The translations under genes were made by a program, and so were the position numbers. The notes under the pieces were generated by a model. The model worked only from the letters and a program-made list of their open reading frames with translations. It was not told the DNA's origin and ran no database searches. DNA of 64,000 bases from an uncultured Rhizobiaceae group bacterium (GTDB lineage Bacteria > Pseudomonadota > Alphaproteobacteria > Rhizobiales > Rhizobiaceae): positions 62,001 through 126,000 of the forward strand of contig CANMVS010000010.1 of NCBI GenBank assembly GCA_947501445.1. Direction: 5' to 3'. Within the stretch, counting starts at the first letter, position 1. The number at the start of each line of letters is the position of its first letter. Positions 1 through 6,392 of the stretch are shown in pieces.

Positions 1-97
1 GAAAGCGCCTGCCGAGAGATTTCCAGTCATTCTTTGACTGACCAGGAAAATCATCAAGCGATAGGCCGCACATTTCACAAGCATCTTTGAAATCCAT
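1..97 (-). CDS. N-terminal fragment of an unrecognised protein, cut by the window edge
   Basis: On the minus strand an ATG at 95-97 opens a frame that stays open for 32 codons to the window edge and begins MDFKDACEMCGLSLDDFPGQ. A purine-rich GGGGGTG lies about six bases upstream of the ATG, a good ribosome binding site, which supports a real start. The rest of the protein lies outside the window, so no family can be named. The residues are acidic with a CxxC-like spacing (Cys-Glu-Met-Cys). Confidence 0.5.
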   Translation of the reverse strand, partial: MDFKDACEMCGLSLDDFPGQSKNDWKSLGRRF

Positions 98-290
98 AAT
101 ATTCACCCCCATAAATATTGCGACCGGTGATATTTATATCAACAAAACAGCAATCTGTCTCAATACATCTTGATACGAAACATTTGATGCTTAACGAAAT
201 GAGGGCTAACCTTCAAGTGAGGCAATATCGGCAGCAGCAAATCGGACCGCGTTACTCCGGTCGCCAGACAGGAGCATTCGACTTCCACCA

Positions 291-352
291 GGCCGATTCA
301 CATTTTGTCAGAAACGGGTCAATGGTGTCGGTTATTGATTTTGATGATGTGC
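291..352 (-). repeat. Diverged copy of the dispersed double-hairpin repeat
   Basis: Read on the minus strand, this stretch matches the intergenic repeat best seen at 15979-16078 over about 60 bases, including the central TTGTCAGAAACGGG and GGTGTCGG blocks. It is older and shorter than the other copies and lacks the intact first hairpin. Confidence 0.6.
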
Positions 353-482
353 ACGCATAACACGGCAAAGGCAGCACTGGCGCACGAAGTCAACAATATG
401 GTTGGACAAGCCTGTTGGGCAGATAACGCACCTGAAATGCACAGTCAGTTGATGCAGGCTTGGGCAAATTGGCTGATCGCGC

Positions 483-848
483 TTATTTTTCGAGCCAACT
501 GGCCGTTGACGTATTTGTTCCATGGACGTTGTAGTGATAATTACAGTTTTGATTGCCTCTGCAATGCATCTTCAAGTCCGTATTGTTTTCCACATGATGT
601 TTCCATAATCGGTCTTCAAACCATCGCGAATTACTATCAACAGTGCTGATCGCCTTTATTGCATCCCTCGAAAAAGCCCATGTTGCAGGCATCCCACAAC
701 ATCTTTCACCATCTTGAATTCCCATGTTTTTCTGTATGTGTTCCGGCTTCCAACGATAACCATTGATGCCGCCATGAGCGTGCTCACCAGTAAGTGTCCG
801 GCCACGGTGCTCTGACGCGCCATAGAGTGTGTTGATAGTGTCCACCAT
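483..848 (-). CDS. Unrecognised ORF abutting the IS66 element; may be a truncated gene
   Basis: An open frame of 121 codons with a protein-like composition, rich in Trp, His, Cys and Asn. The segment Ala-Phe-Ser-Arg-Asp followed by Trp-Phe-Glu-Asp-Arg recalls the acidic-pair region of some glycosyltransferases, but this is only an impression. The first codons run straight into the left end of the IS66 element, so the original 5' end may have been removed by the insertion and the apparent ATG may belong to the junction. No ribosome binding site is clear. It could also be a chance frame. Confidence 0.35.
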   Translation of the reverse strand: MVDTINTLYGASEHRGRTLTGEHAHGGINGYRWKPEHIQKNMGIQDGERCCGMPATWAFSRDAIKAISTVDSNSRWFEDRLWKHHVENNTDLKMHCRGNQNCNYHYNVHGTNTSTASWLEK

Positions 849-874
849 TGATAGTGGACATCTTGAGGGCAGTT

Positions 875-1261
875 ATGGCGGGTAAGAAGGGTCAGAAGAA
901 GCGGTTCTGGTCGGATGACGAGAAGGTGTCGATCTGCGCGCAAACATGTGCGGCGGGTGTGTCGGTGGCGCAAGTTGCGCGGCGATACGCAATGAACATC
1001 AACCTGATCCATAAATGGCTGCGGGATCCCAAGTTTGCGCCAGATCTGGAGATCGTTGAAGAGCAGGTTGCTGAGACGCCATGCTTTCTCCCTGTTGAGA
1101 TTGTGGACCGGCATCAGACCAAAGGCACGGTCCCGACGACTGACGCCGCGCCTGCCCAAAGTGCGATTGAGATCGATATCGCAGGCGGTCACCGCCTGAG
1201 GATCATCGGTGGCTATGACCCCGAAGCGTTGGCCCGTTTGATCCGGGGCCTTTCAGCATGA
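875..1261 (+). CDS. tnpA: IS66-family accessory protein TnpA (OrfA)
   Basis: A 128-residue protein with a helix-turn-helix of the IS66 OrfA/IS3-like type in the first half: basic start, then the segment [20 protein letters not shown], in which the recognition helix is followed by the usual Asn-Leu-Ile-His-Lys-Trp. The C-terminal half carries the Ile-Glu-Ile-Asp and Leu-Arg-Ile blocks common in this family. The start at 875 is chosen because GAGGG precedes it at normal spacing; a TTG at 848 is possible but has no such site. The gene overlaps tnpB by ATGA. It looks intact, unlike the other two genes of the element. Family role: needed with TnpB and TnpC for IS66 transposition, probably through DNA binding. 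Confidence 0.85.
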
Positions 1262-1645
1262 GCCCGGTCCCGGCAAACACACGGGTCTGGTTGGCCGCTG
1301 GCGTGACCGACATGCGACGCGGGTTCACGACGCTGGCAGCGCAAGCAGAGCAGACACTGAAGCAGGACCCTTTCGTTGGGCACCTGTTTGTGTTCCGTGG
1401 CCGTCGTGGCGATCTGATCAAGATCATCCTCCTCTCGGGCATTGCTGCGCAATACCCTGCCGGGCAAGGGGTGGGATGGTCAAGGCGCGTGCCTGTTCAG
1501 CAAGCGACTTGAGAAAGGGCGGCTCGTGTGGCCATCGGCCAAAGAAGGCAAGATCGCCCTGACCGCCGCGCAGTTGGCGATGCTGTTGGAAGGGATCGAT
1601 TGGCGTTTGCCACAGCGTAGCTGGACACCGCTCAAGGCGGGATAA
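1258..1645 (+). pseudogene. tnpB: IS66-family TnpB (Orf2), frameshifted by a hairpin insertion
   Basis: The first 57 codons read as a normal IS66 Orf2 protein up to the [10 protein letters not shown] block. The expected continuation Trp-Asp-Gly-Gln-Gly-Ala-Cys-Leu-Phe is found from about 1472, but in another frame. Between the halves are about 40 extra bases (core 1431-1469) with a hairpin. The second half then reads normally to the stop at 1643-1645 and ends with the usual Trp-Thr-Pro-Leu-Lys-Ala-Gly. The two reading frames together make a full-length Orf2, so the insertion is the only visible lesion. Confidence 0.85.
1431..1469 (+). repeat. 39-base hairpin insertion, copy 1 (in tnpB)
   Basis: Sits inside tnpB. 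It begins CCTCTC, then has arms GGGCATTGC (1437-1445) and GCAATACCC (1449-1457) around a TGC loop, then ends CTGCCGGGCAAGG. The second copy at 2414-2452 has the same outer blocks but different, still complementary, arms. In this copy the net effect on the gene is a frameshift. Confidence 0.7.
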
Positions 1646-1705
1646 ATCAGCAATACACGCACGTGCTGGATTCCCGTCGGGCCGCTGTTTTGCTATGCTT
1701 TGACC

Positions 1706-2719
1706 ATGTTGAACGTCGACAAAACCTTGCCGAAAGACCCTGACGAGCTCAGGCAGTTCACGGCGCTTTTGTTGGCCGAGGTGAAGTCGCAGGCAGTTTT
1801 GATCGAGAAGCTGCGACACCAATTGGCAGGTCACCGCAATCACCGGTTTGGCACCTCATCCGAGAGCATAGAGCAGCTTCAGCTGGCCTTGGAGAACAGC
1901 GAGATCGCCGTCGCCAAGATGACGGTAAAGTTGCGTCTTCCCGATGAAGAACCAAAGGACAAGCCAAAGCGGCGACCAATCCCAGATCACATCCCGCGCA
2001 TGGAAGTGGAACTGACCACGGGGGATGACGATTGCCCCCAATGCGGTGGTGGACTGCGCCGCCTCGGCGAGGATGCGACCGAAGTACTGGAATATGTTCC
2101 AGGGCGCTTCATTGTGAACCGCATCGTGCGACCGCGCTTTGCATGTTCGGGCTGCGAGAGCTTCACACAGGCAGCATTACCATCACGTCCCATAGAACGC
2201 GGAAGGCCCGGCCCCGGTTTGCTGGCGCATGTTCTTGAGAAAAAATACGCAGACCATCTGCCGCTCTATCGCCAAAGCGGCATCTTCGAGCGCGATGGGA
2301 TCGACATTGACCGTTCAACGCTGGCCGACCGGGTTGGCAAATCCACGGCGTTGTTGGAACCACTGGCGGATGCCATTGGACGGCATGTGCTAGCTGGACA
2401 GGCCATCTTTGCCCCTCTCATTGATTGCTTTGCAATCAACTGCCGGGCAATGGACGATACGCCCGTCAAGATGCTCGCCCCCGGCACCGGCAAAACAGCA
2501 ACCGCGCGGCTTTGGGCCTATGGCCGGGATGAACGTCCTTGGGGCAGCGACGTCCCACCGGCCAGCTGGTATCAGTTCTCGCCAGATCGCAGCTCACAAC
2601 CCCGGAAAATACTCCAGCCGGGTGGTCCAAATTTGGGGAGCAGCTCAAAACAGGAACAGAGCTTACTTATCAATGGACCTCAAAAAGGGGGCAGGTCAAG
2701 TCGCCGGAAAATAGCGTGA
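1706..2719 (+). pseudogene. tnpC: IS66-family transposase TnpC, with an in-frame insertion and C-terminal truncation
   Basis: Begins with the coiled-coil leader (about residues 10-75, including HRNHRFGTSSE), then the zinc-finger-like CPQCGGGL...CSGCE region near residues 110-150, then the start of the transposase domain. After Gln-Ala-Ile-Phe-Ala, 13 residues (bases 2414-2452) interrupt the expected Asp-Asp-Thr-Pro-Val-Lys block. The frame follows family sequence as far as Phe-Ser-Pro-Asp-Arg near 2585-2603, after which it is unrelated and stops at 2719. IS66 TnpC proteins are usually a little over 500 residues; the later catalytic residues are missing. Not functional. Confidence 0.85.
2414..2452 (+). 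repeat. 39-base hairpin insertion, copy 2 (in tnpC)
   Basis: Exactly 39 bases, so it stays in frame and adds 13 residues to TnpC. It begins CCTCTC, has perfect arms TTGATTGC and GCAATCAA around TTT, and ends CTGCCGGGCAATG. Removing it restores the expected IS66 sequence exactly at Phe-Ala/Asp-Asp. Confidence 0.75.
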
Positions 2720-2978
2720 GAAGGTGTCGACGATGGTCAAAACGCGCCTCAACAAGACGCCTGCGGCAGGCCGGAAACTCAATCGTAGAAGTGTCACAAT
2801 GTGTTACCGTCGATCTCTTGCGATAAATAAATGTAAGCAACTGAATTATAACGCAAATAGAGGGTCGATGGTACCTCCTTCATGAAATATTCGGGCCAGA
2901 CCGTCGTCTATTAAAACACCGCTTTGCCGTATTTGGAGCATATAAAAGTCTATCTTATAGACGTTGGCCGGAAACGGT

Positions 2979-4058
2979 TTAGTCATTCAGGAGTTGCTTA
3001 ACCTGAGATAGGTTTTCGGACGACAGCAAAGAGAAAGCGACAGCGTCACCACATCGCAGATCCGCTCGCGCCATTCTGGAGACGACGCCCACTAACACCC
3101 ATTTCGGTCCGGACCCACGATCAGTCTTGAAAAACATCGGGCCGCCACTGTCTCCGCTGCAAGGACCAAGCCCACCTTGTCGTGTGTCCCGGCTGATAAC
3201 TTCTCGGCCTTGGACGCAGTTATATCGGGATCCAATACAGGTCACATCCACAATGGGCGATTTGAGGTAGTTTTTTACACCTATTCTGTATAGGCGAGAA
3301 TTTGGATTGTGGCTCCGCCGTCCGAACCCAGCAATTAGTGTTACCGTACCTTTCTTCAAACTTGCTATCTCATCTGACGTGGCCATTTCTATCGGAAATT
3401 TGAGGTACAATTCACCGATCTCCTGGTTTAGCTCCACAACAGCTAGATCTGAACCCGCAATAGTCCTTCGCATGGATCGGTAGTCGGTGCAATCCATGTC
3501 AGCCGCATCGTCTATCAGGCGAAATTTGGTTCCAAATTTTCTCAAAAGCGACGCCTTTTGTGTGTTGCGCCCGAAGGCTATAGTCACCGGTTTTGAGAGC
3601 CCGCAAAAACAATGGGCTGCTGTCAGGAAGTGTTTTCGGGTTATCGCCGTTGCAGAACAGATCGGTCGGTTATTATTGAGGAGCAGCGCAGTTACTTGGG
3701 TCAATTTACCGGCGCGGGGGCTATTTCCACCTATGCTACGGATCAGTTCACCAGGTAAAACATCTTGGTCCCGATCAGAGTAGTCCAATACAATATTTTG
3801 AACCGGAGCGACGTTCGCCACCCAGTCCTGAAAGACAGGATCATCGTCGATGTAAAGCGGGGTAACCGAACTCAAAATTTCGCTATCCGAAGAGAATCTC
3901 TGCCCGGAACTCTCTGAGCCGAGGCGCATTTTTTCCTGTCTTAGTCGCATTGTGTCCACCGCAGAGATTCCGTCGCCAGAAGACCCATTTTCCTGAGTTA
4001 GTCCGGGTCCAAGGCCAAGAAAGGCAGTTGCGAGAAGTAAGCGGAACAAGTACTTCAT
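2979..4058 (-). CDS. Secreted chymotrypsin-fold serine protease A (S1 family)
   Basis: A 359-residue protein with an N-terminal signal peptide (about residues 1-21), a region of about 90 residues of no recognised family, then an S1 protease domain. The catalytic triad is readable: His149 in LTAAHC, Asp204 in SDLAVVEL and Ser304 in GDSGGP. The residue six before the serine (chymotrypsin position 189) appears to be Gly rather than Asp, so specificity should differ from trypsin. Cys pairs flank the triad, which suggests disulfides and export to the periplasm or outside. Its ATG overlaps the stop of the upstream lipoprotein gene (ATGA), so it is the last gene of a coupled four-gene operon. Substrate unknown. 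Confidence 0.88.
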   Translation of the reverse strand: MKYLFRLLLATAFLGLGPGLTQENGSSGDGISAVDTMRLRQEKMRLGSESSGQRFSSDSEILSSVTPLYIDDDPVFQDWVANVAPVQNIVLDYSDRDQDVLPGELIRSIGGNSPRAGKLTQVTALLLNNNRPICSATAITRKHFLTAAHCFCGLSKPVTIAFGRNTQKASLLRKFGTKFRLIDDAADMDCTDYRSMRRTIAGSDLAVVELNQEIGELYLKFPIEMATSDEIASLKKGTVTLIAGFGRRSHNPNSRLYRIGVKNYLKSPIVDVTCIGSRYNCVQGREVISRDTRQGGLGPCSGDSGGPMFFKTDRGSGPKWVLVGVVSRMARADLRCGDAVAFSLLSSENLSQVKQLLND

Positions 4059-5131
4059 GGCAAATCAACGTCGCCCCCGCCACCTGGCAATTTGTCTTGC
4101 GCACACAGTTCGGGATTTCTGGAGCAGTTCAGTTTGTCGAACGCTTCTAATTCGGCCTTTGTTGCCTCTGCCTCTGCTTTCCGGGCATTTGCAGCTGCCG
4201 TTTTTGCTTCCGCAAAGTCTTTCTCAGCTTTTATCACACTGGATCGATCTCCTGTACCTGCTGAGATCCCGGCAAAGAGGGCCCCAACAACCGCGCCGGG
4301 AATTTTGACGATATCCAGCAACGCGCTCTCACCATCGAATTTAACCGTATGGGGCATGCCATCTGTGAAGGTAATATGGTCTACCACCTGGCCGAAGGCT
4401 GATCCTCGGATCGGGAATGAGACCAGGTTTGGAGAATTAAATGTCTCGACTGATCGAAACGTCAGCATGTTCGTCGGAATGCTGTACTCTGTTTCTTTTT
4501 TGCAATCGCCGCTGCAGAATGCAAGCTTCATCACAGCAGGGGTCCTGTAATAAATCACCGCGTCCGCTTTGGCCGGTGGCAGTGTGTCGACATTGACACA
4601 GCCCTCTAAGCAGGCGACGCCAAACCCGGTTCTGCGGCGAAATTCCGAAGATGCAATTGCAAATTCCAAGGGATCTCCTACCCGAAAACTTGCAATCGTT
4701 CTAACTTCTACAGCACCGTCACCTGCATTGTCGCTGAGAAATCCGGCACCGCGAAGCCGTCCAATACTTCGAGCTGCCTCCACGATAATTTCGTCCAGTT
4801 TTCCATCAACTGTGCTGTTTATTGACTTCAGCAGATTAGATCGTTCGTCTACCGAAATGATCAGCTTTTCGGTAGAGACGGGATTTGATTGAATCCGAAC
4901 CGCCACCTGTGAATTCCGATCCGCAACCGTGCGCTCGACCAAACTAATATTCCGGTATTTCACTCCACCTGCCGGGTCAGACAATTTGATATCTACAATA
5001 GAATCCTGAAGCGCGTATGTAATCGACCCTTTCCCTATCTCGGCCGGCGACACTCTTGCCGAATGAACGTAGGAGCACCCTGCAAGCCCAAGGCTGGCGC
5101 TCATTAAAAGTAAGAATTTTAAGTTCAGCAT
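4055..5131 (-). CDS. Unrecognised lipoprotein in the protease operon
   Basis: A 358-residue protein with a clear lipoprotein signal: hydrophobic start and lipobox Leu-Ala-Gly-Cys with Cys19. No known domain was recognised. The middle has two Cys-containing loops (near residues 174-178 and 208-212). A hydrophobic Gly/Ala-rich stretch lies near residues 292-313 and is followed by an Ala/Glu/Lys-rich helix (about 315-345) likely to form a coiled coil, then a Gly/Pro tail. It sits between proteases B and A, 19 bases after B and overlapping A by four bases, so it is made with them. It could anchor or inhibit the proteases at the membrane; this is inference from context only. Confidence 0.8.
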   Translation of the reverse strand: MLNLKFLLLMSASLGLAGCSYVHSARVSPAEIGKGSITYALQDSIVDIKLSDPAGGVKYRNISLVERTVADRNSQVAVRIQSNPVSTEKLIISVDERSNLLKSINSTVDGKLDEIIVEAARSIGRLRGAGFLSDNAGDGAVEVRTIASFRVGDPLEFAIASSEFRRRTGFGVACLEGCVNVDTLPPAKADAVIYYRTPAVMKLAFCSGDCKKETEYSIPTNMLTFRSVETFNSPNLVSFPIRGSAFGQVVDHITFTDGMPHTVKFDGESALLDIVKIPGAVVGALFAGISAGTGDRSSVIKAEKDFAEAKTAAANARKAEAEATKAELEAFDKLNCSRNPELCAQDKLPGGGGDVDLP

Positions 5132-5150
5132 AAGTCCCCCATCTAGTCAT

Positions 5151-6392
5151 TTAGTCGATGTTATCGGACAGCCATCGCAGAATTTCTTCATTAAAGAGGC
5201 TGACGTAGACACCGCCTCTGCCACAGCGGTCGCTACCGCCCCCGATGCCCCGCGCGATTACTCCGGCAAGTACAAAATCATATGTGCTTTGCGGGTTGTG
5301 GAGGGCGAGTAACCCGCCACTGTCGCCATGGCAGGTGTCAGTCTGAAGCGAAACTGGCACATCGCGAACTGTGGATACGAACTCGATATCCGGATGGCAC
5401 ACAAGACTACGGCTGTTCTTGTCTGTACACGGCTCGACGGTATTTTGGATTACCACATTGTTTACTCCACCCCGGTCACTAATGTCGGTATCCCCGAACC
5501 CGGCAGACAGAAAGAACGTCCTGGGATCCGTGAACAAATCCTCGATTTCGTCGTGGCTGAGACCGGTCTCCAGATTTATTCTTCGAAATCCTGACGGTAA
5601 GAGGAACGGTCGACGCACTTCAAGAATTGCAAGATCAACAAGGCGGCTAGACAGGATATCTCCACCAGAGCGATAGGTCTTACAGAAATTGCCATGGTAG
5701 TAATTTGCTCCCCTTTTGAGCACTCGCTTCTGCGTTTCAGAATCGCGGGTATCCGCATTTATGTTTTTGCCCAGAAACGCCATCTCAAGTGCTGGCTCAC
5801 AAGCACAATGGGCAGCCGTCAGCAAAGTGTGGTCATCGATTAGGAATGCAGAACACAACAGTCTGCTGTTTTCGTCCAGCAACGCAATAGTCTCGCCATA
5901 GTGGTGTTGGACGAACACGGCCTGACCGTAGTGTTGGAAAAACCCAAACCGATTCACCCGCCCCACTTGGCCAGGGAAAGAAAGCGTCTGGGGAAAGGTC
6001 GGTATAGATTGCTCTGGGAACATGTCGCAGGAGGGTGGACGGCTGTCGGCGTGTTCAAATCTGTCGCATGTCCAGGTATCACTTGGAGTGTCAAACAAAT
6101 TCGAGGCCACCGCAATAAAGTCGTTGTCGTTTGTCAGCGCGATAAAGGTCGTAGATCTTTGTGGGATTTCCAATGCAGCTGCACCCAACCCAAGCCGTGA
6201 AATTGCCCTTTTGATTTCGTAAAGAAACATGCTGGTTGTGTAGATTGGATCCTGCTCTGCCGTTTCTGGTAACTGTTTGAGGAGCTTCAGGAGGTATTGA
6301 TCAATGTCATCTGCGTGCGTTGGCGCCGAAATGGAAGCCAGAAAAATGGATAAGAATGCCACCGGAATTATGGGTCTGAAGGGAGGCATCAC
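5151..6392 (-). CDS. Secreted chymotrypsin-fold serine protease B (S1 family)
   Basis: A 413-residue protein with a signal peptide ending near residue 27 (Thr-His-Ala-Asp), an N-terminal region of about 140 residues with no recognised family, then an S1 domain. Triad: His195 in LTAAHC, Asp253 in VDLAIL and Ser358 in GDSGG. The residue at chymotrypsin position 189 is Asp (Asp-Thr-Cys-His-Gly-Asp-Ser), which predicts trypsin-like cleavage after Arg or Lys. The start overlaps the stop of protease C by ATGA. There is no obvious IVGG-type activation site, so activation may differ from protease C. Confidence 0.87.
   Translation of the reverse strand: MMPPFRPIIPVAFLSIFLASISAPTHADDIDQYLLKLLKQLPETAEQDPIYTTSMFLYEIKRAISRLGLGAAALEIPQRSTTFIALTNDNDFIAVASNLFDTPSDTWTCDRFEHADSRPPSCDMFPEQSIPTFPQTLSFPGQVGRVNRFGFFQHYGQAVFVQHHYGETIALLDENSRLLCSAFLIDDHTLLTAAHCACEPALEMAFLGKNINADTRDSETQKRVLKRGANYYHGNFCKTYRSGGDILSSRLVDLAILEVRRPFLLPSGFRRINLETGLSHDEIEDLFTDPRTFFLSAGFGDTDISDRGGVNNVVIQNTVEPCTDKNSRSLVCHPDIEFVSTVRDVPVSLQTDTCHGDSGGLLALHNPQSTYDFVLAGVIARGIGGGSDRCGRGGVYVSLFNEEILRWLSDNID

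Follow-up and report, generated by a model that had tools for sequence, protein, structure and literature searches.

A family of short hairpin-forming DNA inserts residing largely in insertion sequences of alphaproteobacteria

Short hairpin-forming and palindromic DNA elements are known in several forms. In REPIN/RAYT systems, a Y1 transposase is proposed to act in trans on hairpins that cannot move on their own, and RUP and other MITEs are small non-autonomous repeats that can occur in insertion sequences (IS). Rickettsia palindromic elements are mobile palindromes inside protein-coding genes and are described as being read in frame, and the bypass elements of T4 gene 60 and of mitochondria are short hairpin inserts in genes. 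The CGTC- and GTAG-tagged REPs are small palindromes of alphaproteobacteria with an unpaired tag, CGTC or sometimes CCTC, and variable stems of 8–9 bp (PMC3733652). These tagged REPs were found without a linked transposase, and described REPs are mostly intergenic, often in head-to-head pairs; their loops measure 4–5, and the tail of the CGTC group is CCA (PMC3733652).

Here, we describe a large family of hairpin-forming DNA inserts of ~36 to 41 bases in many alphaproteobacteria, two of which interrupt a single IS66 element. From sequence comparison, these inserts are probably a gene-less mobile palindromic DNA element of ~36–41 bp that would be moved in trans by an enzyme. Among described elements, the CGTC-tagged REPs come closest in shape and host group. 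Their super-family has a CGTC, TGTC or CCTC tag beside a variable stem; the inserts begin with CCTCTC, which contains CCTC, followed by a stem of 7–9 bp. The inserts differ in their loops, mostly of 2–4 rather than 4–5, and in their tail, CTGCCGGGCARNG rather than a short CCA. A literature search of open-access articles, mostly of titles and abstract openings, found no description of hairpins inserted in transposase genes.

The window, the whole stretch of 64,000 nucleotides analysed here, contains the following features:

860..2592, plus strand: IS66 element, the stretch alignable to an intact Roseobacter litoralis IS66; 3' truncated
875..1261, plus strand: tnpA of IS66, an open frame
1258..1645, plus strand: tnpB of IS66, its frame disrupted by hairpin insert 1
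1430..1469, plus strand: hairpin insert 1, consisting of T + CCTCTC, arm GGGCATTGC, loop TGC, arm GCAATACCC and tail TGCCGGGCAAGG; net 40 nt
1706..2592, plus strand: tnpC (IS66 transposase), reading open across insert 2; 3' truncated
2414..2452, plus strand: hairpin insert 2, consisting of CCTCTC, A, arm TTGATTGC, loop TTT, arm GCAATCAA, C and tail TGCCGGGCAATG; 39 nt, in frame

We aligned this element to the intact R. litoralis IS66 (L260), which is annotated with a tnpA-type transposase, tnpB and an IS66 transposase, and found 1364 of 1643 aligned bases identical (83%). Relative to this reference, the window has 40 extra nt at 1430 and 39 extra nt at 2413/2414. Apart from the 3' truncation at ~2592, the only other indels are an in-frame one of 6 nt in tnpA and one of 11 nt in the tnpB–tnpC interval. 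The two hairpin inserts are the main disruptions of the window IS66. A preliminary description had placed related hairpin copies at 1431–1469 in tnpB and 2414–2452 in tnpC, and the pattern CCTCTC-N15-28-CTGCCGGGCAA recovers both with their shared ends (1431–1467 and 2414–2450; no match in 100 shuffles). The alignment bears out its statements that removing copy 2 restores the TnpC frame, copy 2 being in frame, and that about 40 bases are extra at copy 1, where the net insertion of 40 breaks TnpB. The complementarity that it reported for the stem arms holds throughout copy 2 (8 of 8 pairs) and with one exception in copy 1, where a C.A mismatch leaves 8 of 9 pairs. L260 provides the empty IS66 site: the insert bases are absent from it. 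They are not ancestral IS66 sequence. Insert 2 stands immediately 5' of an Asp codon (DDTPVK) in tnpC. Substitutions between the window and L260 are dominated by third codon positions, with 7, 2 and 47 at the first, second and third positions of tnpB and 26, 11 and 106 in tnpC.

Other features of the window were recorded in passing. The IS66 runs out in sequence (2589–2648) that has a 97% identical counterpart elsewhere in the host genome, on contig C48, so its truncation was probably caused by another repeat. An Rfam search of positions 1–6000 at E up to 5 gave no match at either insert; an inverted repeat at 5851–5936 weakly resembled a plant microRNA family in both orientations, with scores under the gathering threshold, and is probably a chance palindrome. 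Two neighbouring genes on the minus strand (2979–4058 and 5151–6392) both show trypsin-like GDSGGP motifs by eye.

Searches of the kind proposed in the preliminary description recovered many further copies. The exact pattern occurs 4 times in the host genome and 16 times in 201 genomes, with 3 matches for a reversed-pattern control; a hairpin is present in 13 of the 16, and the matches at L005, L009 and L015, which have none, were taken as chance. A covariance model built from 11 copies found 7 copies in the host genome and 96 in 47 of 394 genomes of the bacterial family. Before counting, 8 of 119 model hits were dropped as the same copies in overlapping loci, and duplicate loci (L021, L041, L044, L052, L089, L236, L240) were left out of the same-site, strand and frame counts; merging near-identical sites gave 82, 147 (target motif set) and 172 (strand and frame set) distinct sites. 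A scan of public genomes yielded at least 119 stretches, and among the matches listed 51 of 80 pass the model at E 0.05. The record titles of these 51 nearly all name Rhodobacterales or other Alphaproteobacteria and a few name no class, the exceptions being MAGs of Haliea (L167) and Duodenibacillus (L115); the latter copy, which by eye lies in a dihydroxy-acid dehydratase, is probably a chance match. Eight of 12 viral contigs also pass the model.

The common layout is CCTCTC, a freely varying but complementary stem, and then the conserved tail of ~12 bases, with stems of 7–9 bp and loops usually of 2–4, mostly 2–3. We scored stems in 154 of 173 unique elements, leaving out 19 without a clear tail or middle length, and found 92 in which all of the outer bases examined pair; 40 distinct 5' arms are represented among these. 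When arms were swapped between elements 1000 times, the mean number of perfect stems was 6.8 and the maximum 14. What is conserved among the copies is the two ends and the predicted foldability of the middle. Local hairpin formation by replication slippage is ruled out, because both ends are identical across many genomes and IS families. At one IS3 site, L064:2505 and L069:2524 have equal arms and loops of GAA and TTC that are mutual reverse complements, as if the centre had been flipped. In the phage methyltransferase gene of L237, a full insert (5556–5593) has an apparent stemless remnant, CCTCTC followed by CTGCC, just upstream; it looks like the stem was lost from one insert and a second insert arrived beside the remnant.

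The copies are concentrated in mobile genes, a distribution that departs from that of the described REPs, which are mostly intergenic (PMC3733652). In the family search, 76 of the 96 copies have transposase homology no more than 300 bases away, and 73 of these lie in it or directly adjoin it. Some reference frames for this count were drawn from the same loci, some references, including the IS110 of L105, were identified by eye, and L095 scored via a single weak IS110 match. Six further copies are in IS, two by Pfam (L025, L107) and four by eye (L023, L057, L093, L104), and 14 lie outside recognised IS (L035, L050, L061, L062, L063, L073, L081, L087, L088 and L089, near contig starts, and L090, L094, L097 and L106). 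All 7 copies in the host genome are in IS by our reading. Carrier elements belong to the IS3, IS66, IS30, IS481, IS630, IS21, IS110, IS6, IS5 and IS91 families, and by Pfam Mutator and DUF772 matches also to IS256 and IS1182. One element can hold several inserts. L149 has five, and L255 and L252 have five model hits each, those of L255 within 1.2 kb; two of the hits in L255 and one of those in L252 are weak. In three viral contigs, a copy occupies an identical position in one gene, recognised by eye as a DNA cytosine methyltransferase; one fragment of this gene matched no Pfam family, and the insert is in frame in L233 and L238.

Some copies sit in repeats of another kind. L061, L062, L063, L050, L088:1939 and L254:12001 share a repeat of ~200 bases in which hairpins with at least four different stems occupy one site, and which lies 140–180 bases from an IS110 transposase in L088 and L254. 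The copies of L035, L081, L090, L097 and L106 are in intergenic stretches that by eye resemble other dispersed repeats.

One explanation of this distribution is that ordinary REP-like palindromes insert anywhere, and that copies in IS are the survivors, insertions into host genes being harmful and IS dispensable. Size class and fold are as in REPs, and some of the 14 copies outside recognised IS are in intergenic repeats. Intergenic DNA, however, is likewise dispensable and exceeds IS DNA, yet holds few copies, and in the host genome, where the rve domain is matched just 6 times, 3 of these elements carry a copy as judged from neighbouring coordinates. We therefore consider such survivorship unlikely. 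The inserts have the appearance of a tiny mobile element that selects jumping genes as its targets.

The target motif is CC^GRTR, with CC on the left at 93 of 147 distinct sites (background 7%) and GRTR on the right at 39 of 147 (background 1.5%). No target duplication was seen in the empty sites read in homologous elements, the junction having about one base more or less; this absence, and that of the terminal inverted repeats of a parent IS, distinguishes the inserts from RUP and other MITEs. In the cases read, orientation is set by the target motif independently of gene direction: L031 and L162, at one IS3 site, are both antisense and differ in their stems. Such a short motif is insufficient to explain the preference for mobile genes and IS.

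The first residue 3' of the junction is Asp at 25 of 89 sense sites (background 4.8%), an excess due in part to the GA favoured by the target motif. Several of these junction Asp codons, in IS5, IS630, IS66 and IS256, are by eye what we take to be catalytic codons. Regular expressions for catalytic motifs matched at 29 of 87 sites; they were composed after the data had been seen, and the figure is not counted as evidence. One reading is that a system recognises mobile genes as such, placing the hairpin often at catalytic codons, whether as a homing palindrome restricted to mobile elements or as an anti-transposon defence. We regard this as possible but doubtful; if it were true, unrelated IS families and a phage gene would be recognised by a principle not yet described. 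In its narrower form, the host would defend itself by inserting hairpins into the transposase and phage genes of invaders, frequently at catalytic codons. This would fit the preference for many unrelated IS families and the phage methyltransferase gene, the several inserts in single elements (L149, L255, L252) and the Asp directly after the junction. It nevertheless appears very unlikely: the Asp bias is partly a product of the motif, a third of the inserts keep the frame open, some of them in annotated full-length transposases, and inserts move with their IS between species, as in L026 and L027, where an IS481 with an in-frame copy in two genomes is 95% identical over 1421 bases ending inside both loci. 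Defence is less likely than a mobile element that targets jumping genes.

We next consider strand and frame, scored against transposase and methyltransferase frames only. At 172 distinct sites, 96 copies are sense, 56 antisense and 20 unplaced, so that 56 of 152 placed copies are antisense; where both sides could be placed, 39 of 117 are in frame, the third expected by chance, and 78 are out. A less strict tally, which scored fragments against all open frames, gave 99 sense copies, 61 antisense copies and 12 that were unplaced, with 43 of 132 in frame; since homologous genes can match in their antisense frames as well, it put some sites in the wrong place. Antisense placement was read directly in L011 and L031, and in L022 the copy is upstream of the transposase gene. 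With 39 of 117 in frame there is no sign of selection for in-frame peptides. Rickettsia palindromic elements are alike in being palindromes in protein genes, and the inserts differ from them in their random phase and mobile host genes.

The preliminary description had offered two readings of the window copies, a very small mobile hairpin or a bypass element skipped in translation. The first is well supported, by the many unrelated sites, the empty sites in homologous elements, the complementary varying stems and the common target motif. The second, with T4 gene 60 and yeast mitochondrial byps as models, could draw on a hairpin of suitable length shortly 3' of the 5' junction, sometimes out of frame in an otherwise intact gene. 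It is unsupported by the data, and bypass is extremely improbable as an explanation: unlike bypass elements, the inserts occur in both orientations, in any phase and also outside genes, and no matching take-off and landing codons were found by eye at the junctions read. Antisense copies, random phase and copies outside genes rule out translational bypass as a general rule, and the target motif that sets orientation, the lack of target duplication in the empty sites read, the random phase and the frequent antisense placement together argue for a DNA-level mobile palindrome.

In-frame inserts lie in annotated full-length genes for an IS256 transposase of Sulfitobacter indolifex (L264) and for IS5 transposases of Loktanella and Leisingera (L265, L266), and an Octadecabacter IS66 transposase is annotated as two pieces split at the insert. 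In plasmid searches, the insert was outside annotated genes in 7 of 7 records in one and 9 of 9 in another; in a third it was outside in 11 of 15, in genes in 3 and in one record without annotation, and in a fourth, among the best 40 of 56, it was outside in 38, in a gene in one and in one without annotation. Such a pattern would be expected of broken genes. Apart from the inserts, some carriers are nearly intact. L149, an IS3 in a Rhodobacteraceae MAG, carries inserts of 38, 40, 40, 39 and 38 bases, and in comparison with an intact relative otherwise shows one 9-base insertion and no frameshift. In L071 the aligned part is free of indels apart from two inserts. L182 has three inserts and two short insertions at its 3' end, L261 one insert and a one-base deletion, and L179 two inserts together with a deletion of two bases and, at the 3' end, small indels. 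In many same-site pairs the differences fall mostly on third codon positions, an exception being the left flank of L018_518/L020 (32, 20, 16).

Such otherwise healthy genes are odd under simple transposition if insertion kills the carrier, unless each insertion is recent. Either that is so, or the inserts do not block expression, for example because they are transparent, being removed at the DNA or RNA level like a mini-intron or an excised segment and leaving the transposases functional. Transparency could explain the five inserts of L149 without any other frameshift, the third-position differences between pairs with equal inserts, and the lineage-specific changes in tnpC, which by codon position number 12, 6 and 40 in the window and 10, 4, 47 and 10, 3, 47 in two intact copies. 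We judge it highly unlikely: because inserts lie in both orientations, a strand-specific RNA mechanism cannot be the rule, excised forms are not known, the plasmid inserts lie mostly outside annotated genes as they would in broken genes, and recent insertion accounts for the same facts. Recent insertion is also the simpler reading, because identical cores circulate at unrelated sites.

A single site can be struck repeatedly by different stems, the biggest cluster having nine members, and one and the same core recurs across genomes and at sites unrelated to each other (copy 2 of the window, L094/L095, L145 and L174). Among same-site pairs with 60–80% identical flanks, the core is at least 90% identical in 7 of 65 pairs, which are not independent of one another, as against 2% of random pairs. 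In the host-genome pair L018_518 and L020, all 39 core bases are identical and the flanks are 73% identical. Near-identical cores over diverged flanks point to possible inheritance, conversion or homing as against plain transposition. This suggests that the element may be copied into the same site of a relative in the style of a homing element, with inheritance under constraint as the alternative. Inheritance under constraint is not taken as proved to be the sole cause of equal hairpins at equal sites, because identical cores also occur at unrelated sites.

The reading we prefer, a gene-less palindrome mobilised in trans, would proceed as follows. The element enters at a short motif with CC on the left and GRTR on the right, and its fold would be recognised as DNA, either single-stranded or as a cruciform, by the moving enzyme. 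It may spread partly by riding IS between genomes and partly by new insertion, with new insertions striking the same target of related IS repeatedly. About two thirds of the in-gene insertions break the frame, which suggests that the element would be a hyperparasite living on other mobile elements.

A Y1 transposase was a candidate mover. We surveyed 40 of the 47 carrier genomes and 40 genomes of the family without a covariance-model match, taken as non-carriers. A Y1 transposase was present in 9 of 40 carriers (one weakly) and 4 of 40 non-carriers, and was not detected in 31 of 40 carriers, a difference from REPIN/RAYT systems. Y1/RAYT is thus unsupported as the general mover.

The nearest known kinds of element are the REPs and the Rickettsia palindromic elements. 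The many stem variants described here constitute a ready data set on what a hairpin-binding recombinase accepts. If the target choice is real, a gene-less DNA of 37 bases finds a phage methyltransferase gene as well as transposase genes from about a dozen IS families that are unrelated to one another, and its insertions would account for a class of broken transposases that annotation omits as pseudogenes.
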